From positions 4,889,525 through 4,953,524 of the forward strand of contig NC_037593.1 of NCBI RefSeq assembly GCF_003073045.1: 64,000 nt of DNA, written 5' to 3'. The stretch is from Pomacea canaliculata. Lineage: Eukaryota; Mollusca; Gastropoda; Architaenioglossa; Ampullariidae. The notes under the pieces were generated by a model. The model made no database searches and was not told the origin of the DNA. It saw nothing but the letters and a program-made list of their open reading frames with translations. The number at the start of each line of letters is the position of its first letter. Position 1 is the first letter of the stretch. This document shows positions 4,611-28,488 of the stretch, one piece after another. The translations under genes were made by a program, and so were the position numbers.

Positions 4611-7600
4611 TCAACAATCCATGACATGAATATCACCACTCCAGTCTTCAACCGCACAGAATTCATCTGGCCCATTGCTGCTGACTGTTTTTATGAGAGA
4701 TGAGTCACTGACTGAAGACAAAACATGGGATTCCTCTTGACCTTCATCAGAACTAGAGCTGGAATCTGAACTGATCACTTCTGGGATAGGTGATAAAACT
4801 CTTTCAATCGACTTCTCCTTTAAAGGTGATTGCATGAGAGATTTATCTGCTGCATCTGAGTCATGGGTTTGACTGCAAGATGGCTCTTTCTGCCTGCTAC
4901 TGGACCGGCTTTTGGTTTTGCTATCTTTGCTGCCAGACTCCTGGCTCTTGATGCTGCTTTTTTTGTAACGACTTCTGTCTTTCTCTCCATCATCAGTTTT
5001 GTAACGACGTCTTTCTTTTTCTCGATCATCAGTTTTATGCTTGTCCTTCTTGCTCTTTAACTTGTCTTTCTCCTTGTCTTTCTTTTTCTCCTTGTGCTTG
5101 TCCTTGTGTTTTTCCTTATCTTTCAAGTTATCCCACTCGTTGTCTTTGGATCGTCTCTCCTTCGATTTCCTCTTCTCCTCTTTTTCTTTGGATTTATCAC
5201 TCTCCCGGTCTTTCTTTTTGCTGGGTGTCCTATAGTGACAAAAGTGAGAAAGAATGAGGGAAAACAAAGTAATTTCAAAAACACAGATGTACAAAAGAAG
5301 GTCCCTCTAAATTAAGAACAAAATTACCATCATTTTATAAGTGATGACAATGCACAAAATGCAAAATTTTATAGCATTCTTTTCTGAAGTCCAGTCTTTT
5401 TTGCTAAATGTCTATAACCCAGAAGTGCTGATAGACAATGGCCATGACCTGTTAACTGAAGATTCCAAACTTATTTTATGCACCTCCTAGTCTTTTGTTC
5501 TGGTTTTGCAAACATGGTGCTGATAACACTTGGAACCGTGAAATGATTCAATAAATAAAGGAGGGAAGCATATATGGAACAAAAGATACAAGTACAGACA
5601 GCAAACCTTTGGTTCTGAAGACAAGATATAGGTAATTCATAATCTTAGTCAAAAAAAAAAAAAAGGCAATGATTGTTCATAGATATATTTGAAAAAAGGA
5701 TTGTGCATGAATATACACTGCAGATGCTTTAGTACATGGGAGAACCAGGAAAAGTTGATAATCAGGTGATGCATGTCTGTGTACAAAAGTGATGTCTCAA
5801 GTTTGACCTCTCTGCGTTTGGAGGTGTTATCTTGAAAATGAAAGGGTGAGGGGTTGAGTTACCCAGACTTTCGAAAAATAGTATTTTGTACTTATTCTGT
5901 CATTAGAAAACAAAATTTGTGCCTTTAGACCTAGATGATGCAAGACATTGGTTTAAAAGACTTACTTTGATCGGGAACGTTTATGCTTTTTCTTGTGCTT
6001 GCTGGACGTGGGAGACGGTGATCGAGATTTAGATTTTCTAGTGGTCTTTTTTCGTGGTGATTCACTCGGTCGTTTCAAGGGAGATCGACTCCTCATGGCT
6101 GGGGATGGAGACCTTCGTGACCAGGAGCCAAGAGGTGAGATTCTTGGACGTGTGCCAATGTGAGGTCTCCTTGGTGATCGTGACCGTCTTTGAGCAGGAC
6201 TGTATCTAGGAGGTGATCTGAAAAGAAATCGGAGAATATTGCCCTCAAAAAATCAACCTCAGAAATGGACAGGTGACAACTTCTGAAAGACACTAATTAA
6301 TAAGTGTCTTTCAAATTTTTATTTTCATAAAGAGGCCTGCTATTACCTTCTGGGATTAGAATACGCAGTAGGGGGTGTAGGTGACTTTGTTCTTCGTTTT
6401 TTCCGAAAATCCGAGGGTGATTTTGATCGGGAAGTTCTCTTGGATTTGTCTTCCCATCGAACTGGTGTCCCGGATCGGTTGTTGTATTCAAAAACAAGAG
6501 GAGAGTGGGGCTGACTGTTTACAGGAGTCACTGTTGGGGAGGATTTTGCTTCTGTAATTGACGGAAAGAGCAAAAATTAATGATAAAAACCTCTTTTTTA
6601 AAGTTACTACATTTCCATTGCTTTATGAAACCCCCTTTTTTTAACTTCCATGCAAATGAAAACGCTCCTTTTGCGCTGCCAATTAAGAAGCAAAGATAAA
6701 AAAATCTTTCTCTATAAGAAATATGCCATTGGCAGAGAATACCTGAGGCAACTTCGCCACTTCCACCTTCATCAGGGAAAGGTGATTCTTTGACAATACG
6801 AAGCAAATTGATGAACATGGCTGCCTTTCGTTTTCTCTCTAGCTGTAGCTGCTTCTCCCTGGCTGTACTCATCAGTTTGTCTCTGGCAGCAGCTACTAGC
6901 TTATCTTTCAGTCTTTCCTCGGCTAAAGAAACAAAATGGCTTTAAACAACATATCAAGGAGCAGGGGAAAGAGGACACAACCACCCTAACCTTCACCAAT
7001 GTCTCACTGCCCCTTCTGTTGAAACACTTGTCCTATGGATGACCTTATGCAACTGAGCAGAAAAGGCTATTGAAAAGCTAAAAGTATGAGATCAAACAAC
7101 TTTAATATGGTACTGCCAACACAGCCTAACAATAAAAGAAAGTAGCAATTACAATTTCACTGAAATCTAGACATTCAAATAGTTGTCCATCTACCTCACA
7201 CACACACAAAAAGTCATCTTGCTTTACTTATGAAGACCCAGCAAGAGCAGACTTACCTTGTCTACGTTCCAGCTCCTCTGGTGCAATTGGTGCCTTAGTG
7301 TCAGAAGTTGCAGGCACTGATGCAGAAGTTGTGGAAGATAAGTTAGTTGGTAACAAAACTGCACTCCCACGTACATCTGGTGAAGAAGATGGTGAACCAC
7401 TGCCTTTCTCTTTTCCATCAGCATCACCTGGAATGTCATCAATGTGGCCAGTAAAAAACAGAAAATAAGAATACAAAAAGGTATTTTCAACCGCCACAAT
7501 TTAATGCTCGTCTGTTTATTGTAAGCAATTTACTGAAACCACCATCATTGCTGTATAGTGGTGTGACGACCAACTTAAAGAGCAAAGTACAGTGTTATAT

Positions 7601-17920: not shown

Positions 17921-20900
17921 TTAATTGTGTGGAATTTTTATTTTCAAAGTTGCAAGATTCTTTAGAAAGTACTTTGGCACTTTGGCTTTAATGAAGACAT
18001 TTTTATCACCCCGCCATTCTGGTAGTACCAGTGCCTTAGCATGAAGGTGCATAGGCAGATACCGAACCTGGGCTTGACGAAGATTCAGCTTTTGGAGAGC
18101 TTCCGGAAACAATTTCTGATAAAGCAGTGAAACATAAGTGATCATTGTTTCCTGGTCATGATTAATCTTTAATCTTGTCAGTTTGAATATGACAGTCTTT
18201 TGTCAGAGTTATAAGGAAATAGTATGTTAGGTAACTGTTGCATACATTTAAATATCTGCAATAATGGAAGTGACTTCTTTCAGTAATGAGCAAAATAAAA
18301 TTTACCTTCAATTACTCCAGAAATTACATGATTTTTTTTCCATTTATTCTGTACTCATCCCACATTAGTTATCCTTATGAATCCTTCTCTACAGTCTGCA
18401 TCTAAAACATCTAAAAGTGCTTGTAACTCACCTGAGGTGCCAAACGATCAAAGTGCGAATATTTATGGTCTCCCAGCACAGGACTATTCATCCCCTGTGC
18501 CAGGTGAGCTCTTATCTGATGCTGAAATCCAGTCTGTGGTATACATTCAACCAGTGCCATGCTGTCTCTATGTGCCAAAACTTTGTACTGTGTGACAGCT
18601 CTTGAGCTCTTATCATCATCACGAAGAGTTTTCATTTTCTCACCCACAACCCTTTTTTCAGGCTTGATAACTGTCTACAAAAGAAAGAATGAAATAACAT
18701 TTGATAAATATTGTTCTGATTATGTTAGTGATAAATTTTATTTTAACAGCAGAAAAAAAGAGACTTATTACAATTTGTCAAAGGAGAAGATTTTAAAGGT
18801 TTAATTAAAAACACACATAAACACTGCCTTTAAGGAGGGGGGGGGGAAATTGGTGTTTTACGCCGTGTCAGCAACTAAGGCTATATTACGGCAAGCAGCC
18901 AGCCCTGTATGCCTTTAAGGACTCAACCTAGGTTAAATATTTCTGAAGCTACTTTGCATGGGTCATTAAAAAATTTGAGCAAATTTATGTGCTTAAAGTT
19001 AAAAAAAAAAAAAAAAAAAAGTGGTGAGACAATAACCAGAATCCTAGCTATGCCAAAAATTCTGTTGCCAACAGAAAGCTGTACAGCATCAAATGACAGT
19101 TCATTGCACTTCTCTCTTCTTGGACTTGAGCATCAGGAGAAACCTGCCGATTTTATAACTTACAGTCTTCTATTAGTGACACGGCACTTTTTGTCTTGTG
19201 CAAGACTTAATCTAGTGTCCTTTCGCATACATTAGCCACTACTTTTTATGACATAAAGGTCTTCAAATCTGTGACAATATGTTAGGACAAATGCTTACCT
19301 TGTCAAAGCTACACTAACAGCTAATGTGAAAGATGATAATACATGTTAATTATGCATATGCATGTTAGGACATTTTATCTTTGTGGGTGCAAAGGTGTGA
19401 ATGTCAACTTCTAAATGTTTGTACCTTATCAACAACTAGGGATTATTGCCTCAATTTGAAGGAAACTATAAAGGAGATAAACACTATTAGAAACATTTCC
19501 ATTTTGTGCAAGTCTTTAAAATCTCCAGTATGTAAAGGATACAAAATTTCAAAACAAAAGAACAGCAGCATCTAGATAACCTTGACATAATAAAAAAAAA
19601 ATTGGGGGTAGGATCACTTCATCAATATATACTATAAGAAAAATGCTAAATATTGAAACAGGATGTAAATATGAACTTGAGTTAGAAGTGAAAATTGGTA
19701 CAATGGTCGAGCCAGCAACTAAGGCTATATCACGGCCAGGTAGCCAACCCTGTAAAAGGATGCTACATGCAGAGAAAGAACAGTGCAACAGTGGGAAAAT
19801 GATGCAACCTTAACTAATATAAATACAAGAAATGATTCAGAAAATGTATCAAGCATGATTGGAAGCTATTAAATATCTAACATCTCCATGCTGGAAAAGG
19901 TAGAAAAACTTAAGCATGTCAGAAGTGGTGTAAGGGTGATCCCAAGAAATTCAGTATTTAAAATGTTTCAGTCTGAAACACATGCACAATGTGTACAACT
20001 TGCAGAGTTATGTGATAAACACATGCCAGGTTTCCCACCCTTTATTGGACATGCTAATAAATGTTAATTTAAAACAATTTTGCAGTGGCTTCCTGAACTT
20101 AAATTTTGTCTCAGCAACTGTGTCACAAAGCATCACAGACTGCAAAAGTAATTTAGTACTTAAGCTTGTTTGCGATCACTGAGTACTATTGGCCAAGCAC
20201 ATAAGTACTATAAGCTTTGTATGCAAACATTATACTATGGTAATGTTTGGTCATGCCTGAAAAGCAGATCCCCTTGTGGATGAGGATTTCTAGAATCATG
20301 GTTCATGGCAGGTATGAGTAGTTTTGACAGCTTTGCTAATGTTTCAGAATGTCATACCTGAATAGCAAACATTTGTTAACATTCTGCTGTTCACTTTAAT
20401 AAGCAGTATTAATTAGCATTATGTGTACCAACCTTGTAAACGTCATTGATTTTTTGCCTTGCAAGTGGTACATCAATGACACCTGTAATACAAATTTAAA
20501 ATCTATTATGTTCAGAAATCAACTTCTAAAAAAATGGAAGGAGCTTTTCCTTGCCAGTCTAGACTGTATATACATACTGTAATAATTTAATGTGGTTTCA
20601 GGCCAGATATAAACAGTAAATATTAGAAGAGTGAATGTTAATCTTACACAGAATTATAAATTTGATGAGGACAGCTGTTAACAGTCAAGAACAATGGATG
20701 AAAGTACCAAAAAGGTAAAGAAATGCACAAACCTTCATGAGGCTGTGGCAAACCCTTGGTAATTGTCCAGTAAATCTTTTTCACCTCGCGTCTCCGGAAC
20801 ATGCCCAGCAACTGCCAAGAAACCTCAGCAGACCTGTATAATAGGAGATACAGAGTACTCAATAAGCTCAGCAGACTTATAGAATACGAAACATCTTTAT

Positions 20901-23900
20901 TAATACCTTTCAGGAAATTATTATCTGCCATGCAAATATAGCATCAGATATTATATGATACCTCAAATATATATATCAAAAACAATGGTACCAGGTGCCA
21001 GCTATATGAGAACCTTCACTTAAAGACCTGTCCTAGCCATGATTTGGTTGTACATACAGATTGCCGCCAGAATAAAAGAGTGCAGATATTGTGCAGTTTT
21101 GGCTCGGGGAGCTCTATCACTTCTGTCTATGAATCTGTTGTCGAACTCCTGTCGGAGTCATCAGCTAAAATTGTAGTCAGTTTGTTGAATAGAAGCTTGT
21201 GATATAGTATCTCTAAGTCATTCTGTACCCTCCCAATCACTCCTGCTTTTTTAATGTTTTTGTTCAGCTTGTCCCTATCCTGTCTGGCAATGCTCCCACC
21301 CCAGCACACTAGGCCAAATGTCACAGTGATGCATGTTACAAAAGTACAGAATAATTGCAGGAGTTTAGGGCGGGCATTAAAAATTCTAAGTTTTCTCAAA
21401 CACCAAAGGCAGATATGCATTTTTTTGACAACGCTATCAACATGTGTTTTCCAGGTGAGTTCAATGTCAATAGTTATACCTAAATATTTGTAACTGTCTA
21501 CTTTTGTTATGACCCAACTTTTAATAAGTATGTCATCAAAAACAGCCTTCTCTTTCCTGAAATCTACAATCATTTCTTTTGTTTTTGTATCAAAATGCTC
21601 AAACTCCTGTCTGTAGTAGAAGTCATCATTGTTGGAAATCAGTCCTGTAAGTCCAAAGTTGCCTACAAATTCAACTACATGGTAGTTTTCATTCCTGTGT
21701 CTACACTGCAGTGTACAAGGCAAACAAGAAAGGAAAGAGTACAGTCCCTTGGAGCACACCATTATTGGTGTATCAGAAATGACATCACTAGAAATTCTTA
21801 TAAATTGAGTTCTGCTGATCAGATAGTCGAAAATCCGCAGAGTTCTGGTATCCACATTCATCTGAACTAGTTTTTCAACAAGCAAATAACATTGCATTGT
21901 GTTGAAAGCACTAAAGAAGTAAAAAAAACATTAGACAAATGGAGGTGTTGGGGTTCTCCAGATGTGCGTAAATACTTAGACATATAAGCATCTTCTGCAC
22001 TAAATTTACTTCTATAGGCAAACTGGTGAGGGTCTAAGGTCTAATGAGGTCTAATGAGGTCTAGTAAACACTTGAGTACAAGCTTTTCAAAAACTTTCAT
22101 TACAGCAAATTTGCATAAAAGGACACACAGAGTACTCTTGATCTATTGATACTTCTCTCATTCAACTATTCTTAGTTTTCCCTTCTCTCCTTAATTATCT
22201 CTTAACAGACACGTGTACACACAAATATTTCTTTTCACTTCCTCCCTGAACAAAAAGAAAATAAACACATCAGAAAATGGACTGCTTTGCAAGAACCAGA
22301 ATTCTTTTAATTTATATATATTTGTTCACAATGAGATTTAATATTCTTTTAGCGATTTATCTTCAAGATAGGAACATTAAATCTCAAAACTGCACATAAT
22401 TTAGAGCAAGTGCTTCTTCTGGCTCTTCCATTGTCCATGCATTTCTTGTGAAAAACTCACTATTCCCGCCTGAACCAATCAGCAGTTAGTATAACCCTTA
22501 CATCCTTTCACCACCTAACAAATCATGTCCCTTTTTATTTTTTAACCATTAGAAAAGCATATTAAATCCTCACTGACTTTGCTAGAAGCATGATTCCTGT
22601 GGTTTCTTTATCAAGCCTGTGGACCAGATGCAGTCTCTGAAAATTTCCACGGCCAGCATCTACAATCCGACTCAAAGGCTCCAGCAACTGACCAACACTC
22701 ACCCGAACTCCTGGACCACCTGTGCATAAACCAGAACTGGCAGCTGTAAGTAATCTTGGTACTTGTGTTGCTATGAAGATATGCATCACAAAGTAAATAA
22801 TTTGTCATTTGATCACATTTTTAAGTACAAGCATTCTGTAATAAATTGACCCCAGTCATCTGAAAGCATTTCTGCAACTTAAGTAAATATTTCCTCAAAT
22901 AGTCATTGATGAACATGAAAGTAGTGGTGTGAGAACATTGTGAGCATTGTTGTTTTAAATATTGCTGTTAACAGACACAAACATTTGCTACCGAAAAAGG
23001 ATGTTCTTGTTAAAAACTATGAAAATCAAACACCACCAGAAAATGAACCTTTCCAAGAGCTGCACAGAAAATTTGACATTTTTAGAAAGCCAGAAAAAAA
23101 ACTGACCATGTGATGCTAATCCATATGGCTTGTGAATAGCAATGAAGTCATCTGGTGAAATAAAAAATTAGTAATACAACTGATCTATGAAAAACCTCTT
23201 CAAAATAAAAATTAAGGAAACAAAACAGATGGCAAGAATATGAAAAAACCCCAAAATAACCAATAAAAGCTAGGTAAGCCAACTACACAGCAATACATTA
23301 TGCAAACATTATTAAGCATTTATTACAGTGACATTTGTTCACATTAGATGCTTAATTTTATGATGGAATATAATAATTTTCAATAAATCAATCCCATAGT
23401 TCCTATGACAATTAACATAGTAAGTAGCATAAAGGCAGATGTTAAATCACCATTCTCAAATATAATGCTTGCTGCCAGAATCTTGGTAATATCTGCTGCT
23501 GGTAAACGCTCAAAGTCGGTATCTGTTCTTTGATCTCAATCACCCTCATCCTTTCTGCAGAAAGTTTCTTTTCTGTCAAAAATATGATAGTAATTAATAG
23601 TAATAGTGATAATTCTTGCTTTTAAAAGCACAGCATTTCAACACATCTATTAGTTTCAATTTGCTGTCTCAATCCATTCATTTAAAAATGATTTACAGAA
23701 AAGTACAAGCACTTTAGATTTACAAAACTGATTCTACTGAATCCTGCAAGTGCCAAAGCACTTGTCATATATAGCAGCAAACTCTGTTACCAATTTAACT
23801 GTTATGCCCTAACACAAGAGTGTAAAGAAAAGCAATCTGTTGTGAGGTGTTTAGCAACAGTTAATTAAAGTCATGTTGAATTTTTAACTTCTGAACTGAA

Positions 23901-25528
23901 AGTTTAAACAGCTGCTCCTGTCAAAAGCAGTTTCTTGATTTTGATATCTTGCAGTGCTAAGAGTTGCTACTAAGTTTATTTATCCAGAAAGTCCACATGC
24001 AAACAAAAAACTAAAGCTGTCAAAAATAATTTTAATTAAACTGAAAATTACCATCTGTTAACTTGTGCTTGATATCTTTTCGAATTGACATTGCCACATC
24101 ATAAGCGGTTTGTGAATCCTCATGAGGCTGGTCCTTTCTCTGAAGTGTCTTAGATCTCTCTTCTGTTGTTACTAGTTTCTGGTTTGGAATTTGCACTGTG
24201 AACTTTGTTTTTGCTGTTTGCTGATTTGATGCCTGTGAATAGATGGGCTGCCGTCCAGTCACCGCTTCAGTGTGAGTGCCCTGGAGCCTTCTAAAAGGTT
24301 TATGCTGCACATTTTCATTTATGGTATTATGCTGCTGCACTTCTGTATCAAACAATAATGAGTGATTGTGGCTGCCACCACTGGTTGCATACTGTGCATC
24401 AATAAAGTTGAACTCTTCATCTTTCTCTTCATTTTTGAAAGATCCTTGACCTAAAATCTTCTGAGATAAGCCAGTCTTTGGTGGTGGTGCAGATGTGGAG
24501 TCTTGTGCATAACATTCATCTTCACTCTTATCCCATGTAAGTTTTGCGCTATCATGAAAACTGAAGACTCCAGAATATTTCTGAACCTCTGCATCATTAA
24601 CAGAGTCCATTGTATCATTCTTGTTACTACAAACACCAGGAAAAAACTGTTGGTCAATGTATGACAAGTCAGATTTTCTCTCTGGTTCACCACTGGCACA
24701 TGATGCTTCTTTTTGGTCAGAGTGAAGAAGAGGTGAAAAGTAAACTTGATCAACGAAGCTGTCTTCAGGAGGGTCACTACTAGCAGGATGATCTTTGGCA
24801 TCAGTATTTGATGCATGGGATTGAACTTTCAAGCCATTTTCTAAATCTGTTGTCGGGATGTTAGAGATAACTGTTTTCTGCCTATTTGTATTGTTATTTA
24901 AATTTATATGAGCCCCAACATATGGTGTTATTGTTATAGTCTGGTCATTTTGTTCGCTTACATCCAATTGGTGTTTTGATTGGAAGCTTGTGTTATTTGC
25001 TGGTGTACCAGACTGTGATGTATCTGAATATTTAAAAGAGTATCTGTTCTTTTCTTGCATCGAGAACGAGTTTCTTGTTCTTTTTACCTTTGTAACAGTC
25101 TTATCTTTAGGGCAATCGTCTATGAAGGGTTTGTCTGCCCGAGATGAAGTTAAGGCCTGTAGAAATGTTTCATGGTTAAGATTGTGTAAAACTGTTTTTT
25201 TCCCATAACTATCTAAACGAATTTCTCCAAAAGGTGCTTGGTATATGACTTCCTTAGGTTTTTTACTTTTTTGTCCAGATGGAGTAATAAGATGTTCAAT
25301 TTCTGACTGGGACAGACGATGAGGCACTGCTTCGGAGTCAGCATTTGACTCTGATGGTTTTTCTGCAAGGTTTGAATTTTCTTCGATGCCAAAGAAATCT
25401 TCATGTTTTACCGAAAAGTTTCTCCTTACGTAAAGTAATGAAACTGAGCTTGCATCAGTATTTCTTCCAAGATAATTATTTAACTGAATGAAATGCTTCA
25501 AGCACGATTTCCTCAAGGGCGCAGCCAT
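17921..25528 (-). CDS. RPUSD4: RPUSD4-type mitochondrial RNA pseudouridine synthase with long N-terminal extension, 8 exons
   Basis: Exons are 25528-24052, 23572-23451, 23151-23107, 22719-22578, 20833-20733, 20482-20433, 18674-18432 and 18115-17921. The C-terminal 300 residues match RPUSD4: DDFIAIHKPYGLASHGGPGV, the catalytic loop LVHRLDKETTGIMLLAKS (nucleophile D about 585), QTGFQHQIRAHLAQG, LGDHKYSHFDRLAPQ and RYLPMHLHAKALVLP. RPUSD4 converts uridine to pseudouridine in mitochondrial RNAs, including 16S rRNA. The start MAAPLRKSCLKHFIQLNNYL, followed by VRRNFSV, fits a mitochondrial presequence. The first exon encodes about 490 residues of mostly disordered sequence absent from the 377-residue human protein. 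Total exon length is 2375 nt, one short of a whole frame. In exon 2 the frame of AERMRVIEIKEQ does not continue into DTDFERLPAADITKILAASI, so a one-base gap or another acceptor is needed. Confidence 0.88.
18838..18905. repeat. SINE-like repeat, copy A
   Basis: GGTGTTTTACGCCGTGTCAG followed by CAACTAAGGCTATATTACGG and CAGCCAGCCCTGT. The core recurs at 19698-19757 and 30184-30224. TTTACGCCG with CAGCAA and GCTATAT is a pattern I associate with mollusc SINEs. A run of ten G (about 18836-18846) lies at one end. It lies in RPUSD4 intron 6. Confidence 0.55.
19698..19757. repeat. SINE-like repeat, copy B
   Basis: CAGCAACTAAGGCTATATCA followed by CGGCCAGGTAGCCAACCCTG matches copy A at 18838-18905, only 800 bp away in the same RPUSD4 intron and the same orientation. 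The 5' part (ATGGTCGAGC) has diverged. Confidence 0.55.
21127..22110 (-). mobile_element. LINE fragment, CR1/Rex1-like reverse transcriptase
   Basis: The minus strand encodes part of a non-LTR reverse transcriptase: KVFEKLVLKCLLDL and HQFAYRSKFSAEDAY near 22090-21990, VCSKGLYSFLSCLPCTLQC, GLTGLISNNDDFYYRQEFEH, KTKEMIVDFRKE, YKYLGITIDIELTWKTHV and LRKLRIFNARPKLLQLFC. The order suits the CR1/Rex1 group. The expected FADD catalytic motif reads FVGN and the frame is interrupted near its start, so it is dead. Endonuclease and 5' parts are missing. It lies in the same orientation as RPUSD4, inside its intron 4. Confidence 0.8.
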
Positions 25529-25793: not shown

Positions 25794-28488
25794 ATGCGTC
25801 TTTATTCTCTTTGTCGTGTACTTTTGTATCTGGTAGTTGGCTGTGGGGTAGTGGAACTTTTCATATTGAATATTGTAATTATTTACACTTTTATATCTCT
25901 GAAGCAGGAGTTTAATGAAGTTTTTAAAAGTTCGTCAGACTTATCTGTAATTGACAAACTTCTCCAAAGGCCTCTGTTCCGGGACCTGATTTACCACGGA
26001 AAGAACGGCGGATTTCTTTCTTTGCTTCAGGAAACCCTTGAAAGAGTTTACATTGTTTCAGAACCGTGTAGGTCTGCCTCAAAAGATGCTCATTTTCAAC
26101 GTCAGATCAGCTATCTCGGCTTTGACGTTTCTAGCGCTGGAGAGGCAAATTACTTACAAAAACGAATTCAGTCAAGGGCCAGCCTCTTTTCTGATCATTA
26201 CATGTTACTGATAGTTGACATCGGAGCGAACGATGGGTTAATGTCAAGCAACTCGTTTAATTTTATACAGCTGGGTTGGAATGCGACGCTTGTTGAACCA
26301 CAGGTGGCTGAACTTAATTTGGCAAAAACCAACATTGAAAGGTATCAGCTTCCAAGCGTCAACCCTCAGAAAAAAAGAAAAAAAAAAGAGTTCATTATTC
26401 ATATGGCAGAGACTAATAATGCATTGGATTTTTTTTTTCTTGCTTTTGCTTAAATATGAATTTCATTTATGATGACAATTATTAATATTAATTAAACAGA
26501 CACATTTCTTTGTCATCTAATCCAGGAATGCAGTTTACAAATGTACAGCATTGTATTATTTTCATCATCACACTACTCATAGTTTTAGTCTCTCAATAAA
26601 AGAACAAGTGAAACATGGCAGGAGACCAAAGCTCTCATATTAAACCCCCTCCACCACCACAAACTCTGAAGTAGTAAATTGTTAAGTGCGTAACGGGAGG
26701 GAGAATGTGTGTATCTGCATGTGTGCATGAAGTAGATGTTGTAGGGAACTGTATGGTGTCTGTTGTTGCTTCATTGAGTGTGCTATTTTTTGGCAGGTAT
26801 GTAGATCCCTACAATGAGAACAAGCAGATAGTAAGATTTGTAAACTGTGTCATCGGGGATCATGATGGTTTAGAGGATTTTGTGCTGCAAGGATCCTCTC
26901 TAGGCATGGAGAGCCATGTTTATGATCCTCGGCGAGCTGCCTATGAGGCCAAAAGGGGAACTGACACTGGCAGTCAGCTGATTGTCAAAGTACAGAGTAT
27001 GACTGTGCCAACCTTCGCAAACAAGTACAAAATTCCTGTAAATTTTGGAATATTGTCTATTGATGCAGAAGGATTTGGAGACAGGGTGAGTAAAATTTAT
27101 CATCATCATCACCATCGTAAAGCATATTTATATAGTGCCATTCCCAGGCAGGCTCAAAGCGCTGTACATACAGATGCAAACAATATTAGAAGAAACATAG
27201 AGATGTTGCACAACAGCATGTTAGGCAAGTGAACACAATGAACCTTTGCATGTTTGAACTAATGCACTCACAAACACATATGCACAGTGACTGTAAGAAG
27301 TTTCACCTGCAAGCTGTCTTAGTATGCAGGAAGTTCTCATATTAAAAAAAAAATTATGCCCTGTGTTCTCATTTTAAAAATTGTCATTATGAAGGAGGAA
27401 TGTATTATGATGTCGTCATCATCATCATTAAAGGATAAACTTAAGCTTTAGGTTACTAGCACGTTTTCAGAACATAGAACTATTATTAGACTGTTACAAA
27501 TAACTTAGTAAATATTAAATTTTTTGCTAGAATAGCACAGATTGATGGACATCTGTGATTCATATGTTTATGAAGTCCAATTAGGTCTTCAAATGAGGTC
27601 TTAATCTCTATCCAAAACCTAAATGAGAACTGCAATGTTCAAAAGCTTGTATCTCATGAACAAAACTTTTTTGCTCAACTTTGGGCATGTGTGTCTTTAA
27701 ATAAACTAAATCCAGTCATTTGAAAATGATTTTGCATTGGGTAAACCTTTAGTTTTGAATTCATGTACCACATAATTTATTTCAGTCAGTGGCAAACCTC
27801 ATGTGAGACATTGAATATAACGGCACATGAGATACTGGTCTCATAAGATTATAATGAAGCTGAAAAAAAATGTTTGCTGTATAACAGTATGCAGTGTCAT
27901 GCCAGTAGTAGCTTCGTAATATCATGTTTACTTTATCTCTCAATTGCATTGTTTTAATTTGAGCATGATTTAATCTTGTTTTGATTTTCATGACCCCTAA
28001 CTGTCCATAGCTAATGTTACACATCATTTGATTGACCGGGAAGTAACACTTAAAGTGATTATGAAGGGAAACCAATCAGTGGTTAGCCATGATTGTCCCT
28101 TTTCATCATAGCTTAGTTGTGTAGTAGGCTAAGCCGTCAAGATTTACATCTGTATTCGATGTTTGTGAAATGACAAAATCACCTAATAATGCATTTCTCA
28201 AAACATATCTCTGTTATTAAGCGGTGTATGACTGTCTTAATGTTTATGTCTAATGATTAAAAATATAAATGTAAACATAAAATACCAGACCTTCAATTTT
28301 GTTTACGTGCGCAGATTCTTCACCAGTGGATAGACAATGGGTTCAGACCAGCATATATATTGTATGAGCAACTACGCAATAAAGAACCACTGAGCAGTAC
28401 TGTTGAATATCTGCAAGAAAACAGTTACAGGTTTTTAACTACACGAGGCTGGAACCATATTTTTGAGCACAAGCATTTGGAAGAATGA
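25794..28488 (+). CDS. FkbM-family (Methyltransf_21) SAM-dependent methyltransferase, membrane-anchored, 3 exons, 336 aa
   Basis: Exons are 25794-26341, 26797-27085 and 28315-28488; all three close in phase on TGA. A hydrophobic stretch at residues 8-37 (CRVLLYLVVGCGVVELFILN) looks like a signal anchor, suggesting a type II membrane protein facing the secretory lumen. The Rossmann core starts with LLIVDIGANDG (D142-G148, SAM-binding motif I) and NATLVEPQ (E168). MTVPTFANKYKIPVNFGILS, IDAEGFGDR and ILHQWIDNGFRPAYILYEQL are typical later FkbM blocks. The family was named for bacterial O-methyltransferases; animal members are mostly uncharacterised and no substrate can be read here. The start ATG is the first in frame just before the membrane segment; an in-frame extension upstream has only a TTG. 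Confidence 0.88.
27094..27230 (+). repeat. SINE or LINE 3' tail repeat in methyltransferase intron 2
   Basis: A CATCATCATCACCATC run is followed by TTTATATAGTGCCATTCCCA, GGCAGGCTCAAAGCGCTGTA. I recognise the 'TATATAGCGCC...CAGGCTCAAGGCGCTGTAC' theme as a very common invertebrate dispersed repeat with a trinucleotide tail. It begins about 10 bp after the exon 2 donor (GTGAGT). The right border is uncertain. Confidence 0.55.

Follow-up and report, generated by a model that had tools for sequence, protein, structure and literature searches.

RPUSD4 of the apple snail Pomacea canaliculata probably carries a long, mostly disordered arm ahead of its enzyme domain

Human RPUSD4 is 377 residues long, with a helical stretch located ahead of its enzyme domain. 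One published account reports pseudouridylation of mitochondrial RNA by the human protein, describes it as a component of RNA granules, and places a mitochondrial targeting signal in its exon 1 (PMC5377769). Here we analyzed a window of 64,000 nucleotides of the P. canaliculata genome, in which one minus-strand gene resembles human RPUSD4 (5uba) over residues 12-281 of a 282-residue catalytic query, keeps the HRLDKETTG segment, and has a presequence-like start. Unlike the human protein, the snail product appears to have approximately 400 more residues, here called the arm, between presequence and enzyme. The RluA-type domain also aligns with trypanosome mt-LAF3, a mitoribosome assembly pseudouridine synthase (6yxx, E 6.7e-11), but that chain has 406 residues and aligns from residue 157, leaving a far shorter N-terminal part. 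Bacterial RluC and RluD (TIGR00005) belong to the same superfamily, and the snail enzyme scored 138.9-142.0 bits against their model. However, this lies under the curated cut-off of 192.7 bits, and the arm would not fit a model of 298 positions. The papers listed for RPUSD4 and for N-terminal extensions of pseudouridine synthases yielded nothing on a mollusc RPUSD4 arm, which is no proof of its absence from print. We think it fairly probable that snail RPUSD4 is a mitochondrial RluA-type pseudouridine synthase of about 765-790 residues with a long, mostly disordered arm before the enzyme domain. The exons are as follows.

24052..25528, minus strand: RPUSD4 exon 1 (open frame and splice check)
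23451..23572, minus strand: exon 2 region (acceptor scoring and frame check)
23107..23151, minus strand: exon 3, with HKPYGLASH
22578..22719, minus strand: exon 4, with HRLDKETTG
20733..20833, minus strand: exon 5
20433..20482, minus strand: exon 6
18432..18674, minus strand: exon 7
17921..18115, minus strand: exon 8, with the stop codon

Introns 2 to 7 are all GT-AG and keep one frame throughout, and exon 4 holds the RluA-type pseudouridine synthase signature HRLD with the catalytic Asp present. In the PDB, the 282-residue catalytic query matched human RPUSD4 best (E 8.6e-67, 228.5 bits), as expected from the original prediction, which had named the gene RPUSD4. The next chain reached 74.1 bits, no bacterial RluA-type chain did better than E 1e-19, and human RPUSD1 (5vbb) scored 22.1 bits (E 7.2e-4); RPUSD2 and RPUSD3 were not among the matches listed. 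A catalytic query with two extra residues matched PF00849 (E 1e-27) and, when searched against the snail genome, recovered this locus exon by exon along with one weak place (E 2.4). The PF00849 profile found two exons here and one place on contig C12. Judged by these scores, the product of the downstream exons (as far as 17921) resembles RPUSD4 more closely than it does other RluA-type enzymes and is an RPUSD4 ortholog. Two other open frames on the minus strand of the window were noted. One of 267 codons in RPUSD4 intron 4 (21130-21930) resembles by eye the end of a retrotransposon reverse transcriptase, and its single weak Pfam match, to another family, was below cut-off. The other (4611-5306) has a high content of Lys, Glu, Ser, and Asp; its one Pfam match was weak and below cut-off.

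Exon 1 runs from an ATG at 25528 to 24052, that is, 1477 nucleotides or 492 codons plus one base, with GT next, so the predicted length of about 492 residues held. It lies in an open frame of 509 codons (25561-24035, minus strand); the ATG has A at -3 and G at +4, and there is no upstream in-frame Met. Protein and DNA searches of the snail genome (440,159,624 bases in 24 contigs), in which scoring was limited to the best candidates, found exon 1 in single copy at its own locus only. An origin of the arm from a transposon or a duplicate was rejected, as these searches returned the locus alone. The arm was also rejected as a known domain: the best Pfam match of exon 1 (E 0.064) was below cut-off, residues 75-145 had no Pfam match, and the arm query had none in the PDB at E up to 10. 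Among GTDB genomes, 34 stretches fit a peptide pattern and none was confirmed as a relative of the arm; the same was true of the six such stretches in IMG/VR. On the other side of the RPUSD4 start (25528), a plus-strand gene begins head to head at an ATG at 25794, with 265 bases between the two starts. It is probably an FkbM-type methyltransferase gene (PF05050 on 26678-27232, E 0.0036, below cut-off), and it is possible that the two genes share a promoter.

Several features suggest where the extra residues sit:

25412..25528, minus strand: presequence-like segment, residues 1-39 (charge, predicted helix at 4-23, RRNFS at 35-39)
24059..24109, minus strand: predicted helix ahead of the RluA domain, residues 474-490 (AlphaFold2 block-mean pLDDT 47-54)

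A positively charged, helical start with few acidic residues is a mark of a mitochondrial presequence. The first 40 residues of exon 1 contain one acidic residue and have a net charge of +5, and single-sequence AlphaFold2 gave the helix at residues 4-23. Residues 1-39 are presequence-like by charge and predicted helix, and may direct mitochondrial import. Toward the other end of the exon, residues 466-492 have a composition of the disordered type, despite the predicted helix at 474-490. Since the presequence-like start and this pre-domain helix flank them, the approximately 400 extra residues resemble an insert, and the arm appears to sit between the import signal and the enzyme domain. The original prediction spoke of an N-terminal extension; the extra residues are probably better named an insert between presequence and enzyme, a placement drawn from structure predictions and the human layout.

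Composition agrees with the description of the arm as Ser/Thr/Asn/Gln-rich and largely disordered. Residues 131-465 are 36% S/T/N/Q, and their mean hydropathy of 0.384 is below the Uversky boundary (0.422), which puts this stretch on the disordered side. By the same charge–hydropathy measure, residues 91-130 (0.443 against 0.422) and the catalytic part (0.466 against 0.438, for a sequence with a surplus Ser where exons 4 and 5 meet) lie on the ordered side. TOP-IDP gave a modest contrast, 0.159 against 0.091 in the same one-Ser-longer catalytic sequence. In single-sequence AlphaFold2 of the 492 residues, pLDDT was below 50 in 463 (mean 35.3), although low confidence obtained without an alignment is by itself no proof of disorder. 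Taken on composition, the arm is probably mostly disordered. One stretch within it may be different:

25148..25249, minus strand: candidate small ordered element, residues 94-127 (AlphaFold2, two runs, low confidence)

The block VIYQAPFGEIRLDSYGKKTV, singled out earlier as ordered, is at residues 94-113 as claimed. The models of residues 94-127 were alike in both runs, with strands at 94-98, 101-105, and 111-114 and a helix from 119. Block means of pLDDT here were 52-66 in a 71-residue run (overall mean 54.9) and 36-44 in the 492-residue run, which also drew four short strands within 330-374 at low confidence. It is possible that residues 94-127 form a small ordered element.

The arm also contains a recurring short motif:

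25115..25135, minus strand: motif copy 1, DKPFIDD, residues 132-138, without the second aromatic
24737..24766, minus strand: motif copy 2, EDSFVDQVYF, residues 255-264
24641..24670, minus strand: motif copy 3, DLSYIDQQFF, residues 287-296
24389..24415, minus strand: motif copy 4, EFNFIDAQY, residues 372-380

SFVDQVYF (257-264), SYIDQQFF (289-296), and NFIDAQY (374-380) are all placed as predicted, and PFIDD is present, but at 134-138 rather than 135-138. For motifs chosen post hoc, recurrence looks extreme: [FY][IV]D occurs four times against 0.23 expected (a fraction of 0.0002 of 20,000 composition shuffles), and none of 20,000 shuffles reached the three occurrences of [FY][IV]D..[YF], for which 0.016 would be expected. 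Such values are limited to motifs picked after viewing the sequence, while unguided tests pay for the choice of motif. With BLOSUM triples of width 7, 91 of 1000 shuffles matched the real recurrence; in an unguided search at widths 6, 7, and 8, the real score was equaled by 250, 109, and 73 of 400 shuffles. At width 5 a different triple won, and 354 of 400 shuffles reached it. A reduced-alphabet test was won by [DE]xx[FYW][ILVM][DE], which takes in all four copies, with 32 of 300 shuffles as good. The best 7-mer pair was unremarkable (742 of 1000 shuffles as good). The copies themselves are genuine, but their recurrence is no more than suggestive and not clearly above chance.

If the four [DE]xx[FY][IV]D copies, three of them followed by xx[YF], were true short linear motifs, they could give the arm several docking points for a single partner in mitochondrial RNA granules. 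We regard this reading as unlikely. The copies do win five of six unguided tests, and all four share an acidic residue at the same spacing, three before the aromatic; but in those five tests shuffles reach the same recurrence in 9-63% of trials. Neugrin and the FAST kinase domain families are granule partners known in human, and both have matches in the snail genome: a single one for Neugrin, over cut-off, and five for FAST_1 (FAST kinase domain), three of them over cut-off. These matches permit the docking idea, yet as a test they leave it untouched. Elsewhere in the genome, the strict form F[IVM]DxQ[YF]F had 26 hits, as did its backward control, and none of the 26 had a second [FY][IV]D..[YF] in the same open frame (the longest frame being 118 codons). 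All 26 were read, and a second motif-bearing gene was rejected, within the reach of a pattern that is narrow, since the window's own copies do not match it, and of an open-frame reading that would miss copies located in other exons. Of the original proposal of docking sites, then, the copies stand; docking itself fared poorly, with unguided tests not above shuffles and no second copy in the genomic hits. The motif and a docking role for it in mitochondrial RNA granules amount to a fair hypothesis rather than a finding.

The other two explanations turn on the junction between exons 1 and 2. Among 16 AGs scored from 23618 to 23471, the acceptor at 23572 had the best pyrimidine fraction (0.65), but translation from it departs from the catalytic frame and ends at codon 545, so that an intact enzyme would require either a small indel or splicing to a weaker acceptor. 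In-frame acceptors at 23534 and 23522 have poor pyrimidine tracts (0.20 and 0.30); those at 23498, 23495, and 23492 have fair ones (0.60, 0.55, and 0.55), at the cost of the residues ahead of them. Joined to exon 1, all five stay open to the end and give proteins of 778, 774, 766, 765, and 764 residues. This awkward acceptor, together with an in-frame stop six codons beyond the exon 1 donor (24034-24032), an ATTAAA overlapping that stop, and an AATAAA at 23980, raises the prospect that exon 1 is mainly a separate protein of 498 residues, made by polyadenylation in intron 1 or from a gene of its own, with the enzyme using another first exon. Because of that stop and the AATAAA, a product without the enzyme is possible, but AATAAA is commonplace in A+T-rich introns, exon 1 ends in a GT donor whose phase is compatible with the five in-frame acceptors, and a non-systematic look saw no alternative first exon. 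We hold a mainly separate protein to be unlikely, slightly more so than the docking arm. From the TGA at 23538 up to the exon 2 donor, the catalytic frame has no Met; translation must therefore begin in an upstream exon, and the start that exon 1 offers is presequence-like. Single-base errors occur in long-read assemblies, and an assembly indel near 23540-23505, or use of a weaker acceptor, may explain the frame change. Least probable of all, in our judgment, is a real frameshift in exon 2, with the gene damaged in the sampled animal or allele. The frame from acceptor 23572 reads EKKLSAERMRVIEIKEQ before departing from the catalytic frame, and the frame-joined version scored slightly higher against TIGR00005 (142.0 bits against 138.9 and 139.3 unjoined). 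With queries carrying extra residues at the exon joins, the joined version (132.5 bits) had been below the unjoined ones (134.7 and 135.2), an order that the corrected sequences reversed. However, the gain is about 3 bits. Exons 3-8 are intact, in-frame acceptors are available, and the published P. canaliculata assembly is described as long-read based (PMC6129957).

We thus return to the reading that the RPUSD4 gene is genuine and that its unusual arm is probably disordered. The mature mRNA would contain exon 1 spliced to the exons of the enzyme domain, and after import the presequence would be removed, leaving a long, mostly disordered arm fronting the enzyme domain. The arm could act as a flexible tether, free to evolve rapidly in sequence, that holds the enzyme close to its RNA or its partners. 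Residues 94-127 might make a structured contact, and further, weak contacts might come from the acidic-aromatic motif copies, which is the least supported step of this scheme. A bolder extension, to which we give little credence, is that RPUSD4 in apple snails, and perhaps in molluscs more widely, is a scaffold whose repeated [DE]xx[FY][IV]Dxx[YF] sites bind several copies of one granule partner and bring them together around the large-subunit rRNA; a further product, encoded by exon 1 only, would act without the enzyme. If the motif copies are not conserved, the arm would be an ordinary case of a housekeeping enzyme with a disordered extension that evolves quickly. If they are conserved, the arm would offer a handle on how mitochondrial RNA granules retain RPUSD4, a connection that may be concealed in the human protein because it is shorter.
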